From a virus, in the IMG/VR virus record IMGVR_UViG_3300034198_007491, positions 1 through 35,068 of that record: a stretch of DNA of 35,068 bases, one strand, 5' to 3'. Of the stretch, positions 6,376 through 26,287 are shown in pieces. How positions within the stretch are numbered: position 1 is the stretch's first letter; every line of letters starts with the position of its first letter. Both the position numbers and the translations under genes were made by a program. The notes beneath the pieces are model-generated. The model was not told the origin of the DNA and ran no database searches. It saw only the letters and a program-made list of their open reading frames with translations.

Positions 6376-6554
6376 GTCTCACGCTCTTTCATCTCGATGA
6401 ACTGTCGCAGCTTGGCTGGGTCGAAGGTCCAAGTATGGCCTATCTTCGCAGCGCCCGGCAACTCGCCCCGAAGGGCGAGGTGCTGGACTGTTCGGGTTGT
6501 CAAACCGAGCAAGGCTGCTGCTTGCTCGGCTCGGATGCGCGCCAGCGGTGTCAT
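6231..6554 (-). CDS. Xis/AlpA-like MerR-type HTH protein (putative excisionase)
   Basis: The product has 107 residues. Residues ~7-58 form a small winged-helix of the excisionase/HTH_17 type: AEQAAALLGLTTRTVQHLALRGELPGAAKIGHTWTF, then DPAKLRQFI. The C-terminal half is Arg/Gly/Ser-rich and is encoded in the 145 bases that overlap the integrase start in another frame. Placed directly upstream of int, it is most simply a recombination directionality factor that bends attachment DNA for excision. A transcriptional regulator of similar fold is possible. It starts within an ATGA overlap with the upstream gene. Confidence 0.75.
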   Translation of the reverse strand: MTPLARIRAEQAAALLGLTTRTVQHLALRGELPGAAKIGHTWTFDPAKLRQFIEMKERETWLNRKTRTSTRGGRAGSGGSASLLAGTKLEKAYAHAIDKLRSARRTS

Positions 6555-6940
6555 GCCTCTGGGTTGTCGATTTGCTGGTTGCGGTTCGACAGAAGCTCGA
6601 CCATCCGCTTCATGCCTTCATCGACTTCTTCTTCGGCCTTCAGCTGCGGGCCGGGAACCATCGGCCGGATCACGTCGCTTTTGGCTTCGGCGAACTGTCC
6701 GGCGAACGCCATGTAGTTGATGCCGTCCACATAGTTGTCGAGCTTTTGATGGTTCGGCTTGATGCGCGCCATCTTGAGGGCCGCCATCCACATGGCCCCA
6801 TGCCACGGCGTGAAGTCGATGCCGGTCATCAAATTGAAGATGATGCAGGTGCGTTCAAACAATTCGTTTTCGTCGCCGTAGTCATTGCCGCGATCACGCA
6901 ACATGCTGACGGATTCGTTCAATAGCTCTTTATGATTCAT
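6551..6940 (-). CDS. DUF6378-like phage protein
   Basis: The product has 129 residues. The motif layout fits DUF6378-type phage proteins: LLNESVSMLRDRGNDYGDENELFER near the start, then WHGAMWMAALKMARIKPNHQKLDNYVDGINYMAFAGQFA. In those proteins an RGxxYG segment is followed by a KxAR...K.DNxxDxxxYxA helix, reminiscent of all-alpha nucleotide pyrophosphohydrolase folds. I see no clear EExxE metal site, so enzymatic activity is unproven. The start overlaps the upstream stop by ATGA and the stop overlaps the Xis-like start by ATGA. It is part of the coupled early operon. Confidence 0.65.
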   Translation of the reverse strand: MNHKELLNESVSMLRDRGNDYGDENELFERTCIIFNLMTGIDFTPWHGAMWMAALKMARIKPNHQKLDNYVDGINYMAFAGQFAEAKSDVIRPMVPGPQLKAEEEVDEGMKRMVELLSNRNQQIDNPEA

Positions 6941-11008: not shown

Positions 11009-11698
11009 TCAGCTCTTTCCGATAAGCTTAGGTTCCGACCCCTGTTCCGAATGATTACGGAGGCGTAGGTATTCGTCGATTCGTCGATCATTGTCTGAAG
11101 TGCGCTCGGCACGAGCATAGGAGACAACGGAGGATTTTTGATAGGTGATGGCGCGACGACACCAGTTGCGGAAGGTGGCGTCCCAGTTGGCGTGAGGCTT
11201 TCCATTGCCGAGCCAGTAATCACGGAACCGAGAGACTTCATTGTTCACATCCAAATTTGGGAACGCTTGGACTGCCCATCCATACAGAGCCGCGTTCGGC
11301 TCCCAGTCTTCAGGCAGCGTCGTCAAGCGAGCGCGAGGAGTAGAGGGTATAATAGGTTCATTGATAGTATTAGGTGCATGTGGTGCACTACCCTCGTGCA
11401 CGTCGTGCACCGGTAGTGCATCTGGTGCACTACCCAGCTGAAGGCGATAAACGTTGTGGGAAATCGACCCCATCGGGGTCAGTTCAGTTCGTTTGGTCAG
11501 CAGCCCTGACTCTTCCAGTTCGGCCAGCTTGTTGACGACTGACCGCTTGCTCATCTGAGTGTCGTCGGCAAGCCGCAGCATCGACGGCCAGCTTTCGTTG
11601 CGCTCATTGGCGTAATTGGCGAGGACCAGCAGCAGAAGTTTGGCGAGCGGGTCGCCTGTCCTTTGCTTGACGGCCCAAGCCATTGCTTGAAAACTCAT
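11009..11698 (-). CDS. Replication initiator, lambda O-like, winged helix
   Basis: The product is 229 residues from ATG 11698, which has GGAG seven bases upstream; a TTG four codons earlier is less likely. Residues ~10-75 form a helix-turn-helix of the HTH_36/replication O type: KLLLLVLANYANERNESWPSMLRLADDTQMSKRSVVNKLAELEESGLLTKR. A low-complexity linker (APDALPVHDVHEGSAPHAP) is encoded by the iteron-like repeats at 11373-11435. The C-terminal part (LPEDWEPN...ALYGWAVQAFP...FRDYWLGNGKPHANWDATFRNWCRRA) is the DnaT/GntR-like tail common in phage initiators. It probably binds its own internal iterons and recruits the host helicase. Confidence 0.85.
   Translation of the reverse strand: MSFQAMAWAVKQRTGDPLAKLLLLVLANYANERNESWPSMLRLADDTQMSKRSVVNKLAELEESGLLTKRTELTPMGSISHNVYRLQLGSAPDALPVHDVHEGSAPHAPNTINEPIIPSTPRARLTTLPEDWEPNAALYGWAVQAFPNLDVNNEVSRFRDYWLGNGKPHANWDATFRNWCRRAITYQKSSVVSYARAERTSDNDRRIDEYLRLRNHSEQGSEPKLIGKS
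11341..11435. other. Candidate replication origin: iterons plus A/T-rich flank
   Basis: Six GTGCA motifs start at 11374, 11383, 11396, 11405, 11416 and 11425. They form three units of GTGCA-NNNN-GTGCA (9-bp internal spacing) repeating every 20-22 bp. Units 1 and 3 are nearly identical (19 of 20 positions). An A/T-rich tract (11341-11373) adjoins on one side. Iterons inside the initiator gene beside an A/T-rich element are the arrangement of lambda ori. No experimental evidence is implied. Confidence 0.65.
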
Positions 11699-24108: not shown

Positions 24109-26287
24109 ACTAAACATCCTTCAAACGAATTTTGCGTCTGGAGAGCTTGACCCAAAGATGCTGGGCCGAGCCGACACGGCGGCATACGCCAACGGCGCAA
24201 AATCGCTCAAGAACTATCAATTGCTGGCGACCGGCGGCACAATGCGTCGGGCTGGCACATGGCGCAAAGCCGTTTTGAGTGGCCCCACGCGCATCATTCA
24301 ATTCGACTACGACGTCGCCAACCGCTACCTCATCGGGGTGCAGGACAGCCAGACGCGCATCTACGGCACGGACGGAACGCTCGTCGCCACCTTGACGACG
24401 CCTTGGCTTTTGGCCGATCTGTTCGACCTGACCTACGCGCAGCTGGGCGACGTGGTCATCATCTGCCATCCAAATTATCAGACGCAAGTCATCAAGCGCG
24501 TGTCTTCGTTGAGCTGGACCGTCTCAACGTTTTCGTTTGAATCGTCCACCAGCACCAATCAGCTGTTCCAGCCCTACGACAAATTCGTGGATTCGTCCGT
24601 GACGGTAACGCCGTCTGGCGTGTCGGGCTCCATCACGCTGACGGCTTCCTCTGCGCTGTTCACATCCAGCCATGTGGGAACCCGCTTCCGCCTTTACACC
24701 ATCGAAGTTCTGATCACGGCCTATACCAGCTCGACCGTGGTCACCGGCACGGTGCAGGGAACCATTCAAGGAACCTACGACACCAATCCGTTTCGCACCA
24801 AAACCAACAGCACTTTGATTGAAGTGACCCATGTGGCGCATGGATTGACGACGGGCGCGACCATTTCGATCTCCGGCGCGAACGCAATCCTGACGGCGTC
24901 GGGCGGCAACACAATCGCCGCGACCGAACTCAACACGACCAAAACAATCACGGTTGTCGATGACGACCTTTACACGTTCAACGTCACGACAACCGCATCC
25001 GGCGCGGTTGACGGCGGCGGTCCAAACGTGAAATTCCAACCATCCGGCATCGCCACCCGCTATTGGGACGAACAGGCGTTTTCCACGGTGCGCGGCTGGC
25101 CCAGAGCGGTCACGTTCCATGAGCAGCGCCTTTGGTTCGGCGGCTCCAACAGCAAACCAGCTGGCGTCTGGTCGTCTTGGATCAACCGCTTCTACAATTT
25201 CTCCATCAAGGACGGATTGGAGAACGAATCCATTCAGGCCAGCATCGGCTCGGATCAGGGCTCCGCCATCCGCCACATGGTGTCCAACCGCCATCTTCAG
25301 ATCTTCACCGGCGCTGGCGAGTTCTTCTGTCCGCGTCAAACGACGCAGCAGACCCTCACGCCGGGCAACTTTGTGGTTGTGCGTCAGACGCCTTACGGAT
25401 CGTCCGCCGTGCGTCCCGCGCCCTTTGACGGCGCAACGTTGTTTGTTCAGGCCAATCTGCGGACGGTGCGCGAGTTCCTGTATACGGATTCCGATTCGTC
25501 CTACAACTCCACCAACATTTCTTTCGTGGCCGGTCATCTCATCATCGGCCCCAAGGAAATGTCCGTCATCAAGGGAACGACGCAACGCGGCGAACAATAC
25601 GCCGTCATCGTCAAGACCGACGGCACATTGGCCGTGTTCCATTCCGCCCGTTCGGAAAAGCTGGCTGGCTGGACGCCTTGGAGCTTAAAGACAGGACATA
25701 GCGTCTACTCCGTCTGCGGCCTTGGAAACTCGCTCTACATGGTTTGCTACCGCGAAGGCGGCTATTACCTTGAGCAGCTGGAAGCGGACGACTCCTTGTC
25801 GCTGGATTGCGCGGAGACCTACAGCAGCGGCACGGCGCAAAGCACATGGACCGTGAACTCCTGCTATCAGGGCAAATCCATCGCCGTCATCTCCGGCGAT
25901 TTCTACATGGGCGCGTTCACGCCCAACAGCTCAAATCAGATCACATTGTCCGACGCCGTGACCACGATCACGGTTGGTTACAGCTACGACACAAATCTTG
26001 AGACAATGCCGCCGCATTTGCAGCTGCCGCAAGGATCGCAACTAGGCGACCTTCAGCGCATCGCGCAGGTTTTGGTCTGGGTTGAAAGCAGCCTTTCGCT
26101 CAAACTGGCGGGGCAAACCCTCATTTTGCGCGACGTGGTGGACAACATTGAAGCTGCGCCGTCGCGGGCAAACGGTGTCTACAAGTTCAATCTGAGCGGT
26201 TACTCTCGTCAACCGACTGTGACCATTACTCAGGAAGAACCCCTGCCCGTTCGTATTTTGGCAATGCGTTACAAGGTGGTGGGCTGA
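24101..26287 (+). CDS. Tail tubular protein B (nozzle), T7 gp12-like
   Basis: The product has 728 residues. The N-terminal signature LQTNFASGELDPKMLGRADTAAYANGAKSLKNYQLLATGGTMRRAGTW is characteristic of podovirus nozzle proteins. The middle region (strand-rich, FRLYTIEVLITAYTSSTVVTG) and GWPRAVTFHEQRLWFGGSNSKPAGVWSSWINRFYNFS belong to the beta-propeller-like body. The C-terminus ends RQPTVTITQEEPLPVRILAMRYKVVG, also typical. Six copies should form the tubular nozzle. It overlaps the preceding adaptor gene and the following internal virion gene (TGATG). Confidence 0.95.
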   Translation: MAKLNILQTNFASGELDPKMLGRADTAAYANGAKSLKNYQLLATGGTMRRAGTWRKAVLSGPTRIIQFDYDVANRYLIGVQDSQTRIYGTDGTLVATLTTPWLLADLFDLTYAQLGDVVIICHPNYQTQVIKRVSSLSWTVSTFSFESSTSTNQLFQPYDKFVDSSVTVTPSGVSGSITLTASSALFTSSHVGTRFRLYTIEVLITAYTSSTVVTGTVQGTIQGTYDTNPFRTKTNSTLIEVTHVAHGLTTGATISISGANAILTASGGNTIAATELNTTKTITVVDDDLYTFNVTTTASGAVDGGGPNVKFQPSGIATRYWDEQAFSTVRGWPRAVTFHEQRLWFGGSNSKPAGVWSSWINRFYNFSIKDGLENESIQASIGSDQGSAIRHMVSNRHLQIFTGAGEFFCPRQTTQQTLTPGNFVVVRQTPYGSSAVRPAPFDGATLFVQANLRTVREFLYTDSDSSYNSTNISFVAGHLIIGPKEMSVIKGTTQRGEQYAVIVKTDGTLAVFHSARSEKLAGWTPWSLKTGHSVYSVCGLGNSLYMVCYREGGYYLEQLEADDSLSLDCAETYSSGTAQSTWTVNSCYQGKSIAVISGDFYMGAFTPNSSNQITLSDAVTTITVGYSYDTNLETMPPHLQLPQGSQLGDLQRIAQVLVWVESSLSLKLAGQTLILRDVVDNIEAAPSRANGVYKFNLSGYSRQPTVTITQEEPLPVRILAMRYKVVG

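Follow-up and report, generated by a model that had tools for sequence, protein, structure and literature searches.

In-gene iteron origins are usually exemplified by a few lambdoid phages. The origin of phage lambda comprises four annotated iterons within the O gene, spaced at 20-24 bp and with an AT-rich tract next to them (PMC7466680), and in NC_001416 (39034-39118) the spacing of these iterons is 20, 24 and 23. The initiators of lambda, P22 and L are reported to be distantly related and to have different in-gene repeats of their own (PMC8022706). At oriV of plasmid RK2, the iterons adjoin 13-mers, of which TrfA binds a single strand (PMC4081077).

The DNA analyzed here, referred to as the window, is the whole stretch of 35,068 nucleotides. 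Its region 11009-11698 very probably contains an in-gene iteron origin of the lambda kind, in which a conserved 12-mer is the putative unwinding element and which would serve theta-type replication of a temperate phage. An iteron-type origin within the initiator gene had been proposed before from the DNA letters alone, and the array, its reading frames and its conservation within the initiator family support this as the best reading. The locus displays what characterizes an origin of the lambda type: repeated sites, putatively for initiator binding, in the initiator's own coding region, (near-)palindromic iterons at about 20-24 bp, here GTGCACGACGTGCAC and two near-copies at a spacing of 20/22, and, adjoining the last iteron, an AT-rich tract that would unwind, here at 11341-11373. 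The features of the locus in coding order are:

11009..11698, minus strand: replication initiator gene encoding 229 aa, with its ATG at 11698; winged helix, disordered linker and DnaT-type domain
11429..11698, minus strand: winged-helix domain, residues 1-90; HTH_36; AF2 H-H-H-H-E-E, pLDDT 90-98
11416..11430, minus strand: iteron 1 (coding order), GTGCACCAGATGCAC, read in the S-A-P-D-A frame
11396..11410, minus strand: iteron 2 (middle), GTGCACGACGTGCAC, palindrome perfect except for the central base, read in the V-H-D-V-H frame
11374..11388, minus strand: iteron 3, GTGCACCACATGCAC, of the three iterons the closest to the AT-rich tract
11341..11373, no strand: A/T-rich tract, 70% AT, contains the 12-mers
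11350..11370, minus strand: tandem 12-mer, putative unwinding element, ATACTATCAATGAACCTATTA, 3 nt past iteron 3
11135..11320, minus strand: DnaT-type C-terminal domain, residues 127-188; Pfam DnaT 9.4e-7; AF2 helices at residues 136-188

The gene product has only two Pfam matches above the cut-off, HTH_36 (1e-12, residues 17-67) and DnaT (PF17948, 9.4e-7), the latter also passing the curated cut-off, and among the PHROGs it matches phrog_1032, replication initiation, at 1.7e-36. The N-terminal winged helix places the protein in the HTH_36/PHROG 1032 family of phage initiators; out of 54 aligned relatives, 50 and 54 matched the HTH_36 and phrog_1032 profiles, respectively. The Pfam Phage_rep_O domain (PF04492) is matched by lambda O but not by the protein of the window, and profile comparison with lambda O gave no meaningful match (probability 5.7% over 10 columns). 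AlphaFold2 predicted the structure at a mean pLDDT of 85; the winged helix and the C-terminal helical domain are confident, and low values are confined to the linker (about residues 91-110) and to some of the tail beyond about residue 190. Fold matches of the winged helix were weak (Foldseek E 2.5e-3 or worse) and of the generic wHTH type, among them the N-domain of DnaD and chains of plasmid initiators, while a sequence search of the PDB returned a single marginal match, to a designed protein. The DnaT-type domain is presumed to contact ssDNA or the helicase-loading machinery; the protein shares with DnaT the C-terminal domain only and is not DnaT itself. Neighboring genes of the early region encode a repressor, an HTH regulator, a Holliday-junction-resolvase-type DUF1064 protein, a YqaJ exonuclease, an ERF annealing protein, an SSB and an integrase. 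No phage helicase or P-like loader was recognized among the window genes scanned. A further gene, at 6551-6940 on the minus strand, encodes a DUF6378 protein, for which the PHROGs label 'phosphofructokinase' is doubtful.

The array lies about 270 nt into the initiator gene, in the linker-coding part, as had been predicted; the linker is located between the HTH_36 and DnaT domains. The expected three GTGCA-NNNN-GTGCA units every 20-22 bp are present on the plus strand at 11374-11387, 11396-11409 and 11416-11429, with start-to-start spacings of 22 and 20 bp, and scanning the whole 35-kb record identified no exact match of the unit elsewhere. On the coding strand, each 15-bp unit of the array (11374-11430) takes the form GTGCAC-NNN-RTGCAC. 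GTGCAC equals its own reverse complement, which makes each unit not only a direct repeat of two boxes but also an almost perfect palindrome. The units are therefore the same in kind as the lambda iterons, and the original prediction erred in setting them apart from the lambda palindrome. Its related suggestion of an independent version of the same design is borne out by the protein, which combines HTH_36 and DnaT rather than Phage_rep_O, and loses only the contrast with the lambda palindrome. Six RTGCAC/GTGCAY boxes lie within a stretch of 62 bp, compared to at most three RTGCAC boxes in 5000 trials of codon resampling that kept the protein and at most four boxes in 300 dinucleotide resamplings of the whole window. 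The three-way repeat score was 41, compared to a null mean of 28.4 and a null maximum of 34 (0/200). A chance origin of the box cluster is excluded. An inflection of GC skew, which had been anticipated at the site, is absent, and the cumulative skew rises past 11.4 kb to peak near 16.5 kb. In a temperate phage with switching gene orientation, GC skew has weak indicative value.

The closest relative (L001) encodes an initiator 81% identical to that of the window. Three units are retained there. An absence of the repeats from close relatives with the same gene would have spoken against the original prediction, but was not observed. The units are read as SAPDA/VHDVH/SAPHA in the window and as VHDVH/VHDVQ/SAPDA in L001, and because the frames differ between the two, selection acts on the DNA. 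From iteron 3 through the AT-rich tract, which is almost the same in L001, the same codon is used at 12/12 unchanged residues, compared to 106/166 elsewhere (p = 0.009, window versus L001). At the array, it is the DNA and not the protein sequence that is conserved.

The A/T-rich tract foreseen beside the units was found as the AT maximum of the initiator gene, its 70% AT being reached by only 0.5% of the 33-bp stretches in the window; the conserved tandem 12-mer inside the tract had been missed. A 12-mer matrix trained on pairs from 12 distinct relatives, with the window and L001 excluded, had its best site in the 35-kb window, both strands considered, at 11350-11370 on the minus strand, with a score of 24.9 and the next site at 19.0. 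This score was matched by none of 300 resampled windows and attained in 4/2000 synonymous resamplings of the gene. The second-best match, at 24760-24780 on the plus strand, lies in a large late-region ORF and was equalled by 2/300 resampled windows; it lacks adjoining iterons and is probably due to chance.

In-gene arrays are observed across the family at a conserved position. Within a set of 50 non-redundant members, collected by protein homology and including the window, 30 contain a significant array, i.e., three units at a level reached in at most 1/200 codon shuffles. For 28 of them, the array begins between nt 247 and nt 324 of the ORF, immediately behind the winged helix. The spacing ranges from 20 to 25 bp and falls into all three classes modulo 3, without preference for multiples of three. 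The unit sequence is specific to the lineage and often palindromic, e.g., TGTAACAGAGAGTTACA, GTAGTCGCTCAGAGCGA or CCGGCAAAATTTGCCG; clean dyads are not a feature of every lineage, as the palindrome score averaged over the units exceeds background only moderately (5.0 versus 4.3 of 7 pairs). For the remaining 20 of the 50 members, some of which are AT-rich or have a short linker, the strict threshold left no array, and two relatives (L002 and L003) possess the same motif, yet without a significant repeat score. In blind pattern scans of 2.9 million viral contigs, 39 of the 76 matches to GTGCACNNNRTGCACN{5,10}GTGCAC fell into wHTH initiator ORFs, compared to none of six matches to the reversed pattern. 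An iteron-pattern scan of the genome collection placed 7 of 80 checked loci in wHTH initiators, among the matches listed, and was not used as evidence. Relatives of the window initiator (about 25-29% identity) also occur in large Azospirillum replicons of the plasmid collection (e.g., NC_013857, 986-1489), and the family may drive plasmid-like replicons as well.

In many relatives, the last iteron is directly followed by tandem 12-mers; their sequence is AACCTATCANTG, and in the 'primosomal protein I' phages it is AACCAGTCA. The gap between the last iteron and the 12-mer is 3-5 nt, as taken from the sequences by eye, since the automatic palindrome finder often picked the previous repeat. The 12-mer is always on the same side of the iterons, and it is kept, in all three frames, across relatives that differ in their iterons and C-terminal domains. 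Over 109 initiator ORFs, some of which had been identified by pattern, the motif AACCWRTCA was counted 78 times in the sense and once in the antisense orientation (codon phases 46/23/9), and it is present in 26 of the 50 members of the set based on homology only. In the blind scan of the viral contigs, 18 of the 24 matches to the 12-mer pair GAACCTATCANNGAACCTATCA were located in wHTH initiator ORFs; the reversed pattern matched once, outside such ORFs. As the 12-mer occurs with several clusters of C-terminal domains, which were roughly defined by single-linkage phmmer, its reader is suggested to be the winged helix or a host factor rather than the C-terminal domain. No description of the constant 12-mer was found in the open-access literature, the only literature searched, and the element appears to be undescribed so far.

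Among the other six matches to the 12-mer pair, two (L107 and L110) are single pairs in unrelated ORFs, and four represent arrays of iterons (CCCAATTTTGGGAT type) and 12-mers in non-coding DNA outside initiator ORFs:

L097, 2263-2397: non-coding iterons and tandem 12-mers
L108, 4135-4269: non-coding iterons and tandem 12-mers
L111, 1506-1630: non-coding iterons and tandem 12-mers
L109, about 2570-2700 of the reverse complement, minus strand: non-coding iterons and 12-mers

Each of these four phage records also encodes an HTH_36 initiator with its own in-gene array and 12-mers, 10-12 kb from the non-coding array, which is possibly a second origin or a copy-control locus. The non-coding array of L111 shares 75.5% DNA identity with the in-gene origin of Edwardsiella phage GF-2. 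The initiator of GF-2 (L198, 1737-2576) is a naturally occurring domain hybrid at the origin, consisting of an HTH_36 winged helix and a lambda-O-type C-terminus with the iterons in the junction.

In iteron plasmids, the initiator often represses its own synthesis. The repeats might constitute an operator for such autorepression of the initiator gene or operon. The palindromic sites within the gene and the arrays away from the initiator gene in four other phages would agree with this role; however, the array is situated some 270 nt inside the gene and not at a promoter, scanning the sequence beside it revealed no promoter-like site or anything else informative, and an AT-rich 12-mer, positioned invariably on one side, is an origin feature without a role in simple repression. 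We therefore consider an operator unlikely. Somewhat less probable still is that the array serves partition, incompatibility or copy control and that the origin of the initiator lies elsewhere. Plasmid iterons also function in copy control, and four phages do possess a second copy of the array, but the window has none, par genes were not recognized among its genes scanned, and the AT-rich 12-mers adjoining the iterons point to strand opening.

That the repeats are a mere by-product of a repetitive, low-complexity protein linker is the least credible of these explanations and is given hardly any weight. The repeats do fall into the linker of low AlphaFold2 confidence, but the frame in which a DNA unit is translated varies, both within the gene and between the window and L001, which contradicts this explanation. 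In addition, the spacing is not a multiple of three, the repeats vanish in shuffles that preserve the codons, and arrays occur in non-coding DNA of four phages. Against an origin count the number of only three iterons in the window array, the degenerate copy of the 12-mer, the lack of a GC-skew inflection and the 20 family members in which no significant array was detected.

For the in-gene origin, the anatomy of the locus and the examples of lambda and RK2 suggest that the winged helix of the 11009-11698 product, probably as a dimer, would bind the three palindromic iterons (11374-11430), which would lead to melting of the adjoining AT-rich tandem 12-mer tract (11341-11373). The DnaT-type domain would hold ssDNA and help to recruit the host DnaB helicase. 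The gene would be able to carry the origin because the linker accepts almost any sequence. A more general proposal, which we regard as equally likely to hold or to fail, is that initiators of the HTH_36 type share a two-part origin, in which the iterons vary freely with each initiator, and the tandem 12-mer, AACCTATCANTG or AACCAGTCA, stays nearly constant at a distance of 3-5 nt. The 12-mer would then be a common element for unwinding or helicase loading with a conserved partner, i.e., the winged helix on ssDNA or a host factor, and would also act in stand-alone second origins in non-coding DNA. A constant element beside changing iterons brings within reach of testing the long-standing question of what opens the strands there and which protein reads the DNA.

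The locus shares with lambda the near-palindromic iterons in the linker-coding center of the initiator gene and the AT-rich tract on the C-terminal side, but differs in the N-domain, which is HTH_36 and not Phage_rep_O, in having three iterons of another sequence, and in the DnaT-type C-terminus without a recognized P gene. Unlike the tract of the window, the AT-rich tract of lambda, when checked, contained no 12-mers of the AACCTATCA type. Gene 18 of P22 and L likewise has its own repeats inside the initiator coding region; the repeat sequences differ from those of the window, and the excerpted text of the source mentions no common 12-mer (PMC8022706). The 'primosomal protein I' phages (e.g., Salmonella S107, Klebsiella RAH1 and Salmonella ST64B) are also comparable, with an HTH_36-type initiator and in-gene repeats followed by AACCAGTCA-type 12-mers. 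Their iterons have another sequence, their 12-mer is a different variant, and the C-terminal domain is not the same in some of them; the protein identity is about 30-43%. At RK2 oriV, too, iterons adjoin an AT-rich block of short tandem repeats (PMC4081077), but this plasmid origin lies outside the rep gene, has DnaA boxes and depends on an unrelated initiator. The same plan is now seen across a large, mostly uncharacterized initiator family, which provides a sequence rule to find phage origins in metagenomes. The locus in the window follows the known plan of the in-gene iteron origin with an initiator of a different fold family and with iterons of its own.
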